A DNA stretch of 64,000 bases from NCBI GenBank assembly GCA_010094025.1, contig ML991776.1, forward strand, positions 248,001 through 312,000, given 5' to 3'. Source of the DNA: Viridothelium virens (Eukaryota; Ascomycota; Dothideomycetes; Trypetheliales; Trypetheliaceae). Position 1 is the stretch's first letter. Every line of letters starts with the position of its first letter. The notes under the pieces are model-generated. The model was given only the letters and a program-made list of their open reading frames with translations, did no database searches and had not been told where the DNA came from. Shown here piece after piece: positions 30,816 through 38,877 of the stretch. The position numbers were made by a program, and so were the translations under genes.

Positions 30816-32393
30816 ATGAGGTTTCGAGCCAGTATCAAAGATGTCAATACTTTCTCCAGTATGATGGAAAACTGTGCAACAAGCTCTAATCCATCTGACA
30901 TAACGTAGAGCTCGCGGCGTCATTGTCGTCTCTCGGCCATGTCGCTTGGGTCCGTCTGACTAACGACGATGTCCGCTTTACCATTATTCCTGAACAAGGA
31001 ACGCAAGTCTGGGCGTAAGTTGTAGACCAGTATTCTGTGATTTTCATAAGGCTAAGTACCTATTTCTTTAAGCGTCTTGTCGATAGTAAGATTGACATCA
31101 TACAACACTTCTATCTGATCGATCTAAACAGTCTAGGATAATCTTTTCGAAGAATACACGATTCAGAGTGCAGCAGAAAACAACACCATCAATCTCGAAG
31201 CCCCTCTTGCACCACTCCAGCGCGCCCTCAAATCCGCCCTCTCCTCCATATCCACATCTATCCGCCTCACCAAGAAAGACAACATCCCCTTACTCTCCCT
31301 CACCATCACCACTACATCCTCCTACACACCGGCTCCCGCTATCCCTCCCCGAGGCACCTCCTCAGCAACCCAGTCTCAAGCCCGCCCTTCCGACTCCACC
31401 ACCTTCTTCGACGACGACAACGCCGCAGGCACCAGCTTCGATCTCTCCTCACACCACCGCCCACCCCGCGATACTCTCATCACGCAAGACATTCCCGTCC
31501 GCGTGCTCACCGCCTCCTCCGTCGCCGGACTCCACGAACCCCGGTGCCGCGAGCCAGACGTTCATATCCTACTACCTCCCCTGCTACAACTCAAAGCCGT
31601 CTCAGACCGCTTCACAAAGCTCGCCGACGCCGCCAAGAGCAGCAGCGCCTCTGCACTCTCCTCATCCGGCGGGACGACCAGCACCACCTTTGCCCGTCGT
31701 CGGGGTGGAGGAGGCGGAGGAGGAGGTGCCAGCACTCAAGCAGCAGGTCTGAGCAGCAACAACCAGCGCGGACCGCGCCTCGAGATGCTGGCGAACATGC
31801 ATGGCGGGCTGCGCCTGAGCCTGCGGACGGACGCGCTGCGCATCGCGAGCGAGTGGAGCGAGTTGGCGAACCCGGACCTAGATCCCGCGGCGGTGGAAGG
31901 GGCGGAGGAAGGAGTGGCGCGGCATCCGAGCACGGTGATGAGGGGTCGGGTGCCGGATGCGGAAGGGGAGGAAGGGTGGGCACGGGTGCGGATTGATGGG
32001 AGGGATTGGGGGAGGGTGCTCAGTGTGGGACGATTGGGGGGCAGAGTCATTGCTTGTGAGTCACGTTGTTCCTTTTGCTGTTGCCATGTTGAGCATCGTC
32101 CGGTGTATGGACGACACGGCGTCATTGTATGCTTGCGGGTGATGCGGCACGGCACGGCACACAATTAAGGCTTGGGAGGATGATTTGAAAGCTTTTACGT
32201 GATGGCTGACGACGCTCTAGGCTTCTGTCATGAATTGGCTCTGATCTTGTATGTGTATTTGGAAAGTGAGCAGGAGGGTGGAGAGGACTCGGTGCTAACG
32301 GTGTGTGCCTCGTGCGGCTTGGTGACTGTTTCAGAAAATTGGACACGCCAACTGACAAAATGATAGTATTACGTCCAATCATACAGCGCGTAA
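30816..32393 (+). CDS. HUS1: DNA damage checkpoint clamp subunit Hus1
   Basis: Six exons: 30816..30858, 30909..31014, 31073..31085, 31137..32055, 32221..32300 and 32367..32393, 395 aa. Hus1 forms the PCNA-like 9-1-1 clamp with Rad9 and Rad1, loaded at damaged DNA to activate the ATR-type kinase. Joined sequence reads MRFRASIKDVNTFSKLAASL, then LTNDDVRFTIIPEQGTQVWA, then VLSI from a 13-nt exon, then DNLFEEYTIQSAAENNTINL, a close fit to the family N-terminus. The second half has VHILLPPLLQLKAVSDRFTK, LEMLANMHGGLRLSLRTDAL, GRVLSVGRLGGRVIAC, FCHELALILYVYL and a C-terminal YYVQSYSA. Two low-complexity inserts (Ser/Pro/Thr-rich and a Gly-rich run) lengthen the loops. The last exon has only nine codons including the stop. 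No in-frame stop falls within any exon. Confidence 0.93.
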
Positions 32394-35300
32394 GCGCTGT
32401 AATACCCTCGCCGATTTAGCTTGGAGCATAGTTAGCCGTGCCGTGGGGGCGCAGCTAATAGAATAAGTGGAACAACCAACTCCAACAGAATTGCTGGAGT
32501 TTCGTGAAAGGAGAAAAGCAAATACAAGCTGTTGCCGAGAACGCCAGATTGGAGGAAAGTGTTGAAAACGAAAAATGACACGAAATGTGGGTTCGGCGGC
32601 AGTGCTCCGTGAAGTTCTGCCAGGTACCCGGGCGGTTAGTAACCTTAGTGTTGCACGCATGAAAATCGCGATTATGCGATGCGAAATGATCTTGCCAGAA
32701 GGTTCGTCATGTACAAGGTCTGTGCGGTCTGTGTAATGAAAGCCTGTTCTTCAACAATCGATGCCGTGGTTCGCCCTGCAGGATGTTGTCGTCAATTGAC
32801 GAGAGGCTCGGATGCAGCTTGCTCCGCACGTTGTGACATGGCTCACTGTTGCCAAGATTTTCATCTTTCCACAGCCCTACGGAATGGTCGTATCACTGCA
32901 TCACCGTATTGTAGTCATTCTTAGCAAACGGATATCGATGGCAGCATCGGCCCGCTCCCGAGACTGCCCGAGACATTCTGCCGCGAAGTAAGCAGATATC
33001 CAAGATGGGTATAGAAGCATCAGCAGGGCAACCACGTTGACGACGCACGTAGTGAACGGCTGCCCACGTGGAAGGTGTGGGGGCTGACTGGCGTCCGCCG
33101 CTGTTTCAAACCTGGTTCAGGGCAACTAGTAATTTGAACGGTTTGCCCTGAAACAAATGAGCTGAAGTTGATAATAGCTAAGTACCTATACCTGGGATGC
33201 CCTTGCGCACCTATCGCAAGTGAAAGTCAGGCACTCCGGACCCGTTGTCTGTGATGAGTTGGACCGACGGATTCGGAATCTAATTGACGGCGCTGTCGCG
33301 TAGAATTTTCTTTGTCCAACGGTGATACAAGATCAATTGTGGGACCTTATCAGTCAGCTTAAGCGACAGTTGACAAAAAGACGGAGACAGAACGAGAGAA
33401 AGGTGAATTGCCGAGAGAAGACACATCGAAAACGGTTACATGTATCGACCAGGCGATCGTGGTGTATTGCTAAGCCTCCCTATTCTTGATCAGCTCATCC
33501 GTTATGGATGCCACTCTCTGACGGGTACAGCACGTTGAGTCAAATTCAAAGTCAGCACAGTCGGAAGTTTTGCTTTTTGAGAGAGAGCTAGCGAAGACAT
33601 GCAAGTCTCACCTACGCGTGTGCCGAACAGGCAAGATTTACTAACTTATTAGAGCTGCGCTAAGATGGTGACTAAGGGTGTAGTGTGGAAGTGTTATGTG
33701 TTGCCTTGCAGCCTGGGTTCCAACAACCGGTGCCTGGGTTCAGGAACTCATAATCATGCATGCAAACGTTCTTCGTGGCAGCACCCAACCTAGTCTGGGC
33801 CCTGAGTGAGCGACGGATGCATCTAGGGAACTGCCGAAGATAACTATTTTGCGATGACTCGACCGGTGCAGGGAAAGAGTGGGAGAGAAAGTCCCGCAGA
33901 CTGCATCACACGTCATGGTCGCCGGAATTTGCTGGCCGTTCTCGCCACGGCTAGAAGAGAGGGTTGAATAATCGACGGTAAGGTTCTGACGGGAAAACGG
34001 TCGAGAGAGCAGTCGAGTACGAGGTTGAGCTGAATGCGGGCATAGGTGAATGGCCCCAAATTAAGCCATATTCGACTAATAACAGATAAGCGCAGGCAGA
34101 CTAGTATCTTATTAGCGGACGGGCCTGGTCTGCCGTAAGTAAAAATAGCGGTGACGGGCCAGGGTAAACACTAATTATCCTGGCTGTCGCGCGTGGGAAA
34201 CCAGGAGCAGGGCCCAGTAATGTGGATGGGACCGGCACGACACGTTGGGACTGGTTCATTGGGTCCGTCAACGTGGGATGGGTCGCACAGCAGCAAATCG
34301 CCTTTCCATCTGACGCAGGTACACTGTCATTCGTACTACTCTGCTGACGGAATCCACGAGGAGAACGTTGCTTTTTTCCTTGCGCTTTGCCCTTTGACAA
34401 AGACTATGTACCAAGACTACCAAGACGATGGTGGATGTTCAGCCCTAACCGCAGTCGAGGATTCAGTCTATCTTCAGAGCCACGGAGCTGGGAACGTGGT
34501 TCCCGCCAGTTCAGCAACCGGTGTGCGATCTGCTGTTCCAGTAGGTACCTGGTTGGTCGTACAGAAAATTATTGTTTAGGTCATCGTATACCGCAGAGCC
34601 TCAGTGACACCATCAATTGAGAAACATGACACTTGATTCGCCGGCGCACCCTATTTCTATTTGCGGCATTTTCGGATGTACCCCAGAGGAGCCGCAAATC
34701 GCCTTGGCCTTGCTGCAGAAGCATACAAGAAAAGAGAAAATTCTATATCCGATCCTGATGACGCACAGATCTTATCGGTCAATATCCTCGTTAAAACTTG
34801 CATGATGCAATCCTTTGGTCCCGACAATATTCGAATTACGGAGTACCTCTTTGACAAAAGTATGCTAAAAAAGCCAACAGAGCTTCGAGAACGATAGGCT
34901 TATCGATGATGGCTTTCCACTAACCGGCAGCCACTGCAACGGCTAGAGGCTGACGGATTGATTTTTTCAACACCAAAATCTCACAAACCCTGGACCAACA
35001 TCCAAGCGCCCAGCAGCATAGTGCAGCAGTGCCCTGGCATGATTATGTTACCACACATTTCGCGAACGCGAGAATGCGCAACAAATAGAAGCGCGGGTAC
35101 AAGCTGGACTTGCATGAGTGACACTAGAATTAACGGACCGTCGAGGAAATGGCCGCCGGTAACCCTTGTTTCAACTTGGCCAAAACAGGTTCACGCCGGT
35201 CCTTGCTGAGAGCTGCGCCGAGCGCCCAGTGTGACTGTTGTCTTCGACTGTACCTTCAGAAAGGCGCGAATTCGACTAGCGAGCTGACAACCTGCGCTCC

Positions 35301-35433
35301 GCCATTGCTGTGGCCCAGCATGGCAGTCAGGCACCGAAGGTGGTATCTAACATTACCCAGCTAGCTCGTCCACATGGCGGTACGTACCTTATAGGTAGGC
35401 ACAGCTGAGCCTCCCCGATGCCAAATGGATTTG
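32394..35433. other. Gene-free 3 kb upstream of the micropeptide unit
   Basis: The longest stretch in the window without a recognisable gene. Open frames are short, overlapping and domain-free. It holds a 10-bp perfect inverted repeat (TTCAGGGCAA 33,116-33,125 and TTGCCCTGAA 33,143-33,152), a decamer GCCTGGGTTC repeated 21 bp apart (33,711 and 33,732) and a TACGGAGTA at 34,837-34,845. Its position makes it a candidate long regulatory region of the unit starting near 35.43 kb. Confidence 0.4.
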
Positions 35434-35441
35434 TATATATA
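35434..35441 (+). promoter_or_regulatory. Candidate TATA box of the micropeptide transcription unit
   Basis: The sequence TATATATA stands alone in a GC-balanced context. The two ATGs just before it (35,418 and 35,425) would lie outside a transcript starting about 30-100 nt downstream. After it no ATG occurs until 35,868. A pyrimidine-rich leader follows, as is usual downstream of strong fungal promoters. Inferred from sequence only. Confidence 0.5.
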
Positions 35442-35867
35442 CGGCACAACGGTTCGTCGGGATTTCCTGGCATCTCTCCTTCACCAGGCATCAATCCTTC
35501 CGACGGATACAATCCAATCATTCTTTTCCAACCGCTGTTTTCTATTTCCTTGTGCTTTCGCAGTCCCTGCCAATCGTACTGTCAAACGCCACTACGACCC
35601 TTTCCTACAACCGTTTTCGCACAAGGCAACAGCTTCGGCCAAGGCAATTTCGACATCAGTCATTCTATTTTCTCTGAGACCTATTTCTTGAGCCAACTTT
35701 CCGACTTTACGCCCGGTTTCAGTTTCTTTCCGTCAACCACCATTTCCTTTTCAGAAGTCGTCAATATCTCAAGCCTTTCGTCTCAACTTTTCTCCATCGT
35801 CTCGTCTTTAAGTCAAAGCTTTCGTATCAACCTCACCGATTTATCAAACCATTGTTCATCAATCTCC

Positions 35868-35891
35868 ATGGGTCGCGACGGTTACAACTAA
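35868..35891 (+). CDS. Micropeptide ORF 1 (MGRDGYN)
   Basis: A complete ORF of seven codons and TAA encoding MGRDGYN. It is the first ATG after a leader of over 400 nt without any ATG. The third positions of its two outer Gly codons and its Arg and Asn codons vary against the sister ORFs, while the peptide is held. A longer frame from 35,418 runs into it in phase, but its ATG lies upstream of the TATA box and its sequence is low-complexity pyrimidine-rich leader, so I favour the seven-codon ORF. The bases before the ATG (CTCC) are a weak context that would allow scanning past it. No function known; see the findings. Confidence 0.55.
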   Translation: MGRDGYN

Positions 35892-36058
35892 GCGAGCACG
35901 ACTCTCCTATCTCTCTCCGAAGCGTGGATCACCACCAATCTCTGTTTTCAAGCTTCCACTCGTCTATCAATCGGCCGAACTACCTCTTCTCGACATCTTC
36001 AGAGCTGTACGATCAGCGCCTATCCATCTCAATCATCATTATCAGCCCAGTCTTCACA

Positions 36059-36082
36059 ATGGGCCGAGGCGGGTACAACTAA
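36059..36082 (+). CDS. Micropeptide ORF 2 (MGRGGYN)
   Basis: A second complete seven-codon ORF, MGRGGYN and TAA, 167 nt after the stop of the first. Against ORF 1 it has three synonymous changes and one replacement (Asp to Gly). Its start context (CACA before ATG, G after) is the best of the three. No other ATG lies between it and ORF 1, so reinitiation or leaky scanning would reach it. Confidence 0.55.
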   Translation: MGRGGYN

Positions 36083-36194
36083 GCTTCATCTGCTCCTCAT
36101 CTGTGTCGCACTCTTTGAGCATCGCCACATTCCCACAATTTCCGGATCGCATCTTCAATTTTCCAAATCTTCAATCACCATCGGATCCAGCTCG

Positions 36195-36221
36195 ATGCTC
36201 GGACGCGACGGCTACAATTAA
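36195..36221 (+). CDS. Micropeptide ORF 3 (MLGRDGYN)
   Basis: A third complete ORF, eight codons and TAA, MLGRDGYN, 112 nt after the stop of ORF 2 with no ATG between. Apart from the inserted Leu it encodes exactly the ORF 1 peptide, and all three base differences in the shared codons are synonymous (Gly, Gly, Asn). The bases flanking the three ORFs are not alike, so what is kept is the peptide and not a longer DNA repeat. Confidence 0.55.
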   Translation: MLGRDGYN

Positions 36222-36249
36222 CTGAGGGGACGAGGATGGGCTTGTACAT

Positions 36250-36831
36250 ATGACGCCACGATTTCGACAACACCATGGATCTTTCTCAACAGCGTATCCT
36301 TTAGCGAGCGTTGCTTTTCCTGCATTAAACGGAGTTTTCTGGTCTGAATTTCCTTTTCTTTTTTCCTTCTGGCTTTCTTTCGGTTCTGAATTTTCGCAAT
36401 GGAGGCGCAAACGGTTAGGCGTTGGAGTTAAAATAGACTGGAAATGGTCTCGCGACCTGGTTCTTTTGCTTTTCTGTGTTGCATTTGGGATCGGAGTTGC
36501 TATAGACGGGTTACAGGTTCACACCATCATTTCGGCACTTTTCATTTGTTTCAAAAGAGGAGTTGGGATAGACTGGGCATGGGTTCACACCCTCATTTTG
36601 TTGCTTTTCCTTTGTTCCGGGTCTGGCTTCAGAGCGGCATTGCAGGGTGTTTTGGGATATTCATCTGTACGAGTATATGGGCGACGGACGACGAGAGAGC
36701 TTTGGAAGCAGACCGCGGGCGGCACATTGGTAATGGCTAATTTTCGCTCTTCGATCGCTATCGCGGCCTTGTATTATTACCACGCACTCTCATTTACCAA
36801 CACAGAACCTTTGGGTGGCATTAGTCGTTAG
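36250..36831 (+). CDS. Doubtful hydrophobic repeat ORF in the tail of the micropeptide unit
   Basis: A 193-codon frame starting just after the third micropeptide ORF. Its middle holds three degenerate tandem units of 22-23 residues (VKIDWKWSRDLVLLLFCVAF, VAIDGLQVHTIISALFICF, VGIDWAWVHTLILLLFLC), each ending in a membrane-like hydrophobic stretch. The 69 and 66-nt spacings keep frame. Against it: its last 40 nt run antisense over the final coding exon of MSS1, no family is recognised, and several short ORFs precede it. It may be coding, a repeated RNA segment, or chance. Confidence 0.2.
   Translation: MTPRFRQHHGSFSTAYPLASVAFPALNGVFWSEFPFLFSFWLSFGSEFSQWRRKRLGVGVKIDWKWSRDLVLLLFCVAFGIGVAIDGLQVHTIISALFICFKRGVGIDWAWVHTLILLLFLCSGSGFRAALQGVLGYSSVRVYGRRTTRELWKQTAGGTLVMANFRSSIAIAALYYYHALSFTNTEPLGGISR
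36421..36626 (+). repeat. Three imperfect tandem repeats of about 68 bp
   Basis: Three successive units share GGAGTT-n3-ATAGAC near their start (ATAGAC at 36,433, 36,502 and 36,568) and CTTTTC-n-TTTGTT-like ends. The second and third also share GGTTCACACC-n-TCATTT. They lie in the presumed 3' part of the micropeptide transcript. Confidence 0.65.
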
Positions 36832-38877
36832 CAAGTATCCTCTCCACAACTGTGCTTCGCAATCTTTAGAGGGACGGAAAATTACTTACTTCTCGAACAC
36901 TACGCCCAAGACTTCTTCCACATCACCCGACTCTCCTTTGCCAGTTATTTTCGCCAAGCACTCTGCCGCAGCTCTCAAATCTTCGGCCGCAGCCACAACA
37001 TCCAAGTCATCCCCAATATTCCCCACACTATCTTCCGAATTCTTTGCATTCGCGAGTACATTCTCAAGAAAGCGATCCAAATGCATCACGCATTCTTCCA
37101 ATAACCCTCGCTGGCGCTCCGTCACACCCAACGATTCCTGCCAGATCGATACATCCGAATCCGGCGCCTCATCGTCAGGCACAATTGCAGCAGTCAAATC
37201 CTTGAACTGGTCAATCAGCCCATTGAGCAGGGTTTGGATGCCACCGGGATCCTGACTTGCCAAATCCGGCGGCGTCGTTGACGCGGCCCTGCAGGAGATT
37301 TCGAAGATGCGGCTCGCCTGAACTTCGGGTAATTCGTGTTGGACGGCAGAGACCCAACGAGCTGGAGACGATGCTTTGGCCGGATGCAGGTCGATCTTGT
37401 TAATCGCGACGACGACGTTGCTGCAGCGGCGGGCTGTGTCGATGACTTCCGTATCCAACTGCAGCGAAGGGTGGCCTGAAACATCAGCTCCCGGCTCCTC
37501 AAGAGACAGCACCACGAGGACGACGTCTGCTTTCAAGGCCTGCTCCTTGGCCCGCCGGATGCCCTCTTGCTCGATCTCACCGATCACGTCACTGCTGTTC
37601 AATCCGCGTCCGTCCCCAATTTTGGCTACCGTTCCATCCTGAACACCTGCACCGTGCTCTATTTCCGTCGCCGCCTCCATCGCCCTCGTCGTCGCACTCT
37701 CACCTCCCCTCAACCCCGCCATATCCCCCAATCGCACATACCAGCCCCCGAGATCAATTCCGACCTCAACCACATCCCGCGTCGTGCCCGCCTCGCGACT
37801 CACAATCGCCGCCTCCCTCCCGACGACACAGTTCAGCAACGAGCTCTTCCCTGCATTCGGCGCCCCCAGCAACGCCAGACTGATGCCGCCCCTCAGCAAC
37901 TCCCCCCTCACCGCGTTCTCGCCATGCACCAGCATCCGCCGACGCAGCGCCTCCACCGCGCGCACCACCCCGCCCACCAGCCGCACCGGCGTCTCCTCAA
38001 ACTGCTGGTCCTCGGCAAAGTCGATCAGCGCCTCCAGCTCGCCGCGCGCCTGCAGAAGTGACTGCCGCCAGCTCTCGTACGTCTGCGCGAGCCGGTTCGA
38101 CGACGCCGCGCCCCGCACGGAGAGCCGGCGCTGCTGCTCCGTCGTGGCGGTCAGGGTGTCGCTGAGCGCTTCGATCTGTGGGAGGGAGAGGCGGTCGTTG
38201 AGGAAGGCGCGACGCGTGAATTCGCCGGGGGACGCGTAGCGGATGGGTGGGAGGCGGGTGCTGTGAGGGTCAGGAGCTAAGGGCGGAAGGCATCGGGGGA
38301 TTGCGGCGAGGACGGCGCGGATGATGGCGGGGCCGCCGTGGACGTGGAGCTCGAGGATGTCTTCGCCGGTAAGCGTGCGGGGGCCGGGGAAATAGAGGAT
38401 TAGGGTAGATGAGTCCAGGATAGATGAGGGAGAAGGGGGTAGAGAAGGGTCGTAAAGGGTGCGCAGGGTCGCGTGGCGGGGTTTTGGGACGGGCCGATTA
38501 GGACAAAGGGAGGAGTAGATCTAGGATGTTTGTCAGATACCTTGGAATGATGGGAGTAAGCCAAGCATCCTTACTTGACGACATGCTGGGCCTGATATGC
38601 GTATCACTGCAATAGCCGCTCTGCCAGACGCTGTCGACAAAGCATAGATGGTCGGCTGTTCGTCGCCATCGATATCCAAAGACTCTGAATGGCGCCACCT
38701 CCTAGTCTGATATTCATTGACTGCACCTGATGGCTTCAGTCCTGAAGAACTAAGGAGCACAGGGCGCCACTGGTAGCGTCCCGGAGCTTGGTGAGAGGCA
38801 TACCAGCGCCCTTGTGCTGAGGTTACTGTAATATGTGCATGATGGGACACAACAGCTCTGATGCTCCTCCGCATCAA
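36790..38877 (-). CDS. MSS1: Mitochondrial tRNA modification GTPase (MnmE/TrmE family)
   Basis: Exons 38575..38877, 36890..38520 and 36790..36808, 650 aa. With Mto1, Mss1 makes the 5-carboxymethylaminomethyl group on wobble uridine of mitochondrial tRNAs. Order: presequence (MRRSIRAVVSHHAHITVTSA, GRWYASH); folate-binding N-domain starting TIYALSTASGRAAIAVIRIS and containing LHVHGGPAIIRAVL; helical domain; inserted G domain with GAPNAGKSSLLN (P-loop), the EAGTTRD switch, DMAGLRG (G3) and NKID (G4). The C-terminal Cys motif FCVGK comes only from the 19-nt last exon, reached through an 81-nt intron. Without that splice the protein would end at VVFEK and lose the catalytic Cys, so I consider the exon secure. 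The gene diverges from MAK16 with 267 bp between starts. Confidence 0.94.

Follow-up and report, generated by a model that had tools for sequence, protein, structure and literature searches.

Three tandem open reading frames (ORFs), lying on the + strand within 354 bases of the genome of Viridothelium virens, a lichen-forming fungus (Trypetheliales, Dothideomycetes), encode nearly the same peptide of seven or eight residues: MGRDGYN, MGRGGYN and MLGRDGYN, each ended by TAA. This threefold occurrence is real and far beyond chance, and the way in which the copies have diverged makes it likely that selection has acted on the peptide. We tentatively propose, at a little short of even chances and from the DNA sequence alone, that the locus is a polycistronic micropeptide gene, similar in function to tarsal-less of insects and unrelated to it by descent. 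The main competing proposal, which we consider less probable, is that the copies are upstream ORFs (uORFs) acting on the translation of an ORF that follows them.

The three micro-ORFs and their surroundings

An earlier note had given the positions and peptides of the three TAA-ended ORFs, and all of them were confirmed in the window, i.e. the whole 64,000-nt stretch of DNA that was analysed. Together with the features around them, they are:

32169-35433 (about 3.3 kb): interval without an identified gene, between HUS1 and the TATA-like box
35434-35441, + strand: TATA-box-like TATATATA, with TATATA at 35434 and 35436; putative promoter element
35460-35867, + strand: presumed 5' leader; C+T 65%, G 13%, no ATG
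35868-35891, + strand: copy 1, MGRDGYN-TAA; start context TCTCC ATG G, with T at -3
35892-36058, + strand: spacer 1, 167 nt; no ATG, leader-like composition
36059-36082, + strand: copy 2, MGRGGYN-TAA; start context TCACA ATG G, with A at -3 and G at +4
36083-36194, + strand: spacer 2, 112 nt; no ATG, leader-like composition
36195-36221, + strand: copy 3, MLGRDGYN-TAA; T at -3
36236-36253, + strand: mini-ORF MGLYI-TGA, 14 nt past copy 3; uncertain member of the set
36250-36831, + strand: 193-codon ORF, hydrophobic in places; candidate main ORF
36424-36624, + strand: three imperfect repeats (GGAGTTGnnATAGACnGG...), spaced 69 and 66 nt apart, in the presumed 3' part

By general rules the start context of copy 2 is the strongest of the three. 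Copy 3 has one additional codon (CTC) right after its ATG, and this is the sole length change among the copies. The flanks, described earlier as dissimilar, are indeed nearly unlike: the DNA repeat formed by copies 1 and 2 (31 nt, 81%) runs only 5 nt to the left and 2 nt to the right of the ORF.

The upstream neighbour on the + strand is HUS1 (Pfam PF04005), whose frame ends at 32168. Downstream lies MSS1/MnmE on the - strand and, after it, MAK16, the next + strand gene identified beyond the copies. Eight ORFs at 33743-35361 (five on the + strand, three on the - strand) gave no Pfam match, and the interval at 32169-35433 may contain an extended promoter. The translated frame of MSS1 has as its best match a V. 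virens protein (95% identity, 100% of the query), and the V. virens gene model omits part of the frame translated here. At 36790-36889 on the - strand, annotation seems to have missed a short final exon of MSS1: splicing out a putative intron at 36809-36889 (GTAAGT...CTAAC...AAAG), after ...GVVFE, would give the C-terminus ...VVFEKFCVGK-stop, whose end matches C(I/V)GK, which we take to be the C-terminal motif of MnmE proteins. The MSS1 proteins compared, from V. virens, Bathelium and Bogoriella, end in ...VVFEK in all three cases.

Copy 1 is also the end of a 157-codon ORF. We rejected the idea that it is the tail of a 157-codon protein on grounds of homology (26 candidates, none at E <= 1), Pfam (no match), codon use (a score of -0.193 against -0.348 and -0.197 in the other frames, hence little or no better) and the position of the ATG, at 35418, before the TATA-like box. 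Lacking a homologue in this search and coding-like codon use, the 157-codon ORF makes it unlikely that copy 1 is a protein's tail. A possible further trace of the motif lies in the leader: translated in frame with copy 1, GACGGATACAAT (12 nt, 35502-35513) gives DGYN, with neither ATG nor stop. Apart from the copies and this match, GRNGGNTAYAAY occurs nowhere in the window on either strand, and the leader match could be the remains of a fourth copy or due to chance.

Clustering of the peptide is beyond chance

The rarity of the arrangement was established by pattern counts and by a census of mini-ORFs. The pattern GGNMGNGRNGGNTAYAAYTAR, covering the core six codons and the stop, has three matches in the window and none in 100 shuffles; in the 30,719,852-base genome (30.7 Mb) it again has three matches, all at the locus, and the reversed control has none. 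The shorter pattern GRNGGNTAYAAYTAR matches the genome four times and its reversed control 8 + 5 times, showing that it is not rare as such; what is rare is that three of the four matches fall within 345 bases. When the stop is left out, GGNMGNGRNGGNTAYAAY matches four times in the genome (the three copies and one on contig C48), against 1 + 1 for the reversed control. Neither of the matches outside the locus was retained as a relative: the one to GGNMGNGRNGGNTAYAAY on C48 is without a stop and in a different context, one to GRNGGNTAYAAYTAR on C22 is preceded by a stop and is without an ATG, and both look unrelated. The 801-bp locus region has no other match in its own genome.

For the census, mini-ORFs of 5-14 codons were collected from 264 kb (the window plus 200 kb, taken as 20 x 10 kb from contigs C1-C4), and pairs on the same strand within 1 kb were compared after dropping those that were nested or overlapping. 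The 2,391 mini-ORFs yielded 10,561 pairs. Only the three pairs of the locus have at least five residues in common, and 11 other pairs have four. Taken together, pattern counts and census make it very unlikely that the copies arose by independent chance. The peptide pattern had no match in viral and prokaryote contigs, a result that is silent on fungi, and a MAK16 pattern gave 57 matching stretches in viral contigs, none of them encoding a relative.

Divergence between the copies is mostly silent

The counts of silent differences made in the earlier note were reproduced: three of three between copies 1 and 3, three of four between copies 1 and 2, and four of five between copies 2 and 3. Over the six shared codons, third positions are variable in 4/6 cases and first or second positions in 1/12 (Fisher one-sided p = 0.022), a test that is modest on its own, with 18 columns and the copies compared only with one another. 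Counted as minimum changes among the copies, 6/7 are third-position and silent. In a simulation of seven random changes, which took all base changes as equally likely and assumed one root, no more than one amino acid was altered in 0.06% of runs (P = 0.0006).

This silent divergence supports the view, put forward before, that the copies have the peptide rather than the DNA in common, and suggests that the peptide is likely under selection. The signature of conserved-peptide uORFs, a peptide that is kept as its silent sites change, is thus seen among the three copies, a comparison within the locus and not between species. A recent neutral duplication is disfavoured, since it would leave similar flanks and no bias toward silent changes.

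A leader-like stretch devoid of other start codons

Base composition changes abruptly at the TATA-like box: pyrimidines rise from 48% (35000-35430) to 65% (35460-35867) and G falls from 27% to 13%, and both spacers keep these values (63% and 66% pyrimidines, 14% and 13% G, for spacers 1 and 2). ATG density in four blocks upstream (32200-35430) is 15.0-22.5 per kb. The stretch running from the TATA-like box to copy 3 holds three ATGs, and every one of them opens a copy. Leader and spacers together (687 nt) contain no ATG against 3.7 expected (P = 0.024, first-order model of the same sequence); with the copies counted in, the depletion is slight (2 vs 3.9 expected, 35470-36194). Stretches of 400 nt with a leader-like character are uncommon, numbering eight on both strands of the 264 kb, the one at the locus included.

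We rejected a spliced gene, as the + strand has no consensus GTRNGY splice donor in 35440-36800, a pattern that leaves rarer donors outside. RNA families (Rfam) gave no match, and predicted folding around the copies does not stand out from shuffles (z of +0.31, -1.12 and +0.17).

A possible main ORF downstream of the copies

The stop of MGLYI overlaps the ATG of the 193-codon ORF (ATGA), a layout known from termination-reinitiation. This ORF, which the earlier note had not weighed and which keeps alive the possibility that the copies are uORFs, starts 28 nt downstream of copy 3 and is longer than expected by chance in 36222-36885 (P = 0.00075 in a Markov model; 0.0007 with the repeats modelled). 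Its frame has a codon score of -0.152, above its other two frames (-0.316 and -0.323) but below the Pfam-confirmed MSS1 (0.227) and MAK16 (0.334), and below two long ORFs taken for genes by eye (0.109 and -0.034).

Other observations on this ORF are less favourable. None of 349 homologue candidates reached E <= 1; as the database includes V. virens MSS1, an annotated product of the 193-codon ORF, if of similar length, would be expected to appear. Pfam gave no match for the ORF, for its entire open frame, or for a 98-codon ORF at 36444-36740, whose score of -0.235 is not coding-like. The start context is poor (C at -3, T at -1), and on the opposite strand the ORF overlaps the putative last exon of MSS1. 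Differences among its in-frame repeats, summed over three non-independent pairs, number 22, 18 and 9 at codon positions 1, 2 and 3, which is the reverse of conserved coding sequence. The repeats at 36424-36624 have no other match in the genome, and single units fold no better than shuffles.

How the locus might work

If the locus is a micropeptide gene, its transcript would be a single mRNA, not spliced, in which each of three separate micro-ORFs encodes the core GR[D/G]GYN. With a cap near 35465-35500, scanning ribosomes would reach copy 1 before any other AUG, and the U at -3 of this copy would let part of them pass on to copy 2, where the context is best. After translating these 7-codon ORFs, 40S subunits would resume scanning over the spacers of 167 and 112 nt and reinitiate, and all three ORFs would contribute to one peptide pool. 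In yeast, the small disordered protein Roq1 reportedly binds Ubr1 and alters which substrates Ubr1 selects. By analogy with the Pri peptides, which bind Ubr3 in insects (PMC11475943), the fungal peptide would act in trans, and would most likely do so by attaching to a larger protein; we do not claim that a UBR ligase is the partner.

What favours a micropeptide gene is the unique clustering, the silent divergence, the retention of peptide and stop, and a length change of exactly one codon, along with an ATG-free leader and spacers, the step in composition at the TATA-like box and the lack of a GTRNGY donor. Two points make us prefer action in trans to action in cis: the copies are not followed by an accepted main ORF, and having three of them raises the dose. 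Several points weigh against this proposal: the 193-codon ORF could be a main ORF, sites are few (18 columns), ATG depletion is slight once the copies are counted, and position -3 is T in copies 1 and 3. Besides, copy 3 starts with ML, which would give its peptide an N-terminus differing from that of copies 1 and 2. That ribosomes can reinitiate after short uORFs, to an extent governed by how far away the next ORF lies, is established (PMC5972666). A heading in PMC11952965 says that yeast cannot normally translate polycistronic transcripts; we take it to be about long cistrons, yet it counts against easy expression of all three copies.

Competing explanations

The copies could instead be three tandem conserved-peptide uORFs placed before the 193-codon ORF, or before another downstream ORF, and acting in cis. 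We find this unlikely, though worth serious attention, and put in the same range the corresponding mechanism, in which GR[D/G]GYN-stop would stall or release the ribosome on a signal and repetition would tighten the control. The unexpected length of the 193-codon ORF so close to copy 3, the advantage of its frame over the two alternatives, the overlap of its ATG with the MGLYI stop and a composition resembling a 5' leader up to copy 3 all fit such a design, and very short regulatory uORF peptides do exist (e.g. MAGDIS). The supposed main ORF is the difficulty: it has neither homologue (E <= 1) nor Pfam match, its codon score falls below those of confirmed and presumed genes, its start lies in a poor context, it runs antisense to the putative MSS1 exon, and most differences among its internal repeats fall at codon positions 1 and 2.

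The two remaining explanations do without a functional peptide. We deem it improbable that the copies are a lineage-specific remnant or a product of chance, i.e. duplicated short ORFs without function in a leader or noncoding RNA. The small size of the selection test (18 columns) leaves room for this, but the census speaks strongly against independent chance, and the unlike flanks and silent bias are not what recent neutral duplication predicts. Least probable in our view is an RNA element, such as a protein-binding or processing site, present in three repeats in which the ORFs are incidental. The copy-like 12 nt at 35502, without ATG or stop, would suit such an element, whereas the concentration of variation at third positions (4/6 vs 1/12) and the retention of the ATG in spite of a whole-codon insertion in copy 3 would not; the absence of an RNA family match and the unremarkable folds disfavour it too.

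Comparison with known systems

The likeness to tarsal-less drawn in the earlier note is partly borne out: with its three ORFs, its spacers (167 and 112 nt) and its single promoter-like stretch, the locus does resemble the insect gene in layout, and no relation is seen in the sequence. The insect gene, also called polished rice or mille-pattes, has four smORFs of 11-32 aa in a 1.5-kb mRNA, and its peptides have the common motif LDPTGQY (PMC11475943). Like it, the fungal locus has several micro-ORFs on one strand (35868, 36059 and 36195, +) and a repeated short motif; it may also lack a long coding ORF, depending on the standing of the 193-codon ORF downstream. Unlike it, the locus has GR[D/G]GYN in place of LDPTGQY, which is absent from MGRDGYN, MGRGGYN and MLGRDGYN; its peptides have 7-8 residues instead of 11-32; and it is fungal and read from sequence.

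Short uORF peptides offer the other comparison. MAGDIS, of six residues, is encoded by a translation-regulating uORF of mammalian SAMDC. As in conserved-peptide uORFs (the arginine attenuator peptide, MAGDIS, the SAC51 family), a short peptide is apparently selected in a leader-like stretch; unlike in those, there are three copies of one peptide and no established main ORF. To our knowledge the GR[D/G]GYN peptide is unlike the sequences of all three. In GCN4, cpc-1 and cpcA of fungi it is the positions of the uORFs that count, not a peptide shared by them, and the leader is followed by a bZIP regulator. The locus resembles these leaders in having several short ORFs at a spacing that permits reinitiation (PMC5972666 and PMC11550727); section 5 of the latter deals with regulation by uORF peptides. 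It departs from them in that the peptide repeats and that MAK16 is the next + strand gene identified: no bZIP regulator was found downstream, the 193- and 98-codon ORFs, taken as unspliced, being without Pfam match.

Literature and implications

GRDGYN was not found in the literature searched, which excludes most subscription papers, and GRGGYN, RDGYN and MGRDG matched only under titles on other matters, judging from the matching records. Among the matches listed, a Drosophila review included, no title names a fungal polycistronic micropeptide gene, most subscription papers again being outside the search. In Alpine yeasts, smORFs of 30-300 nt have been predicted (PMC9679224), and the words polycistronic and micropeptide have 0 occurrences in the portion of that paper available; ORFs as short as the three copies (24-27 nt) would escape that prediction, given its lower bound of 30 nt. 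Ordinary annotation does not look for ORFs this short.

Near-identical peptides whose silent bases have drifted suggest either a gene for very short peptides or an unusual translation switch. We know of hardly any eukaryotic genes outside insects for free peptides of about ten residues that are translated directly, without a precursor. That this would be the first tarsal-less-type gene in a fungus, with one mRNA whose only product is a free, trans-acting GR[D/G]GYN peptide of 7-8 residues made in several copies, from a family unrelated to any that we recall, is a narrower claim, which we hold possible and with more reserve than the micropeptide gene as such. If the copies are translated, they would provide a short, easily synthesised peptide for direct testing, and a search key for relatives. 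If they are uORFs instead, three iterations of one peptide would represent an unusual design of translational control.
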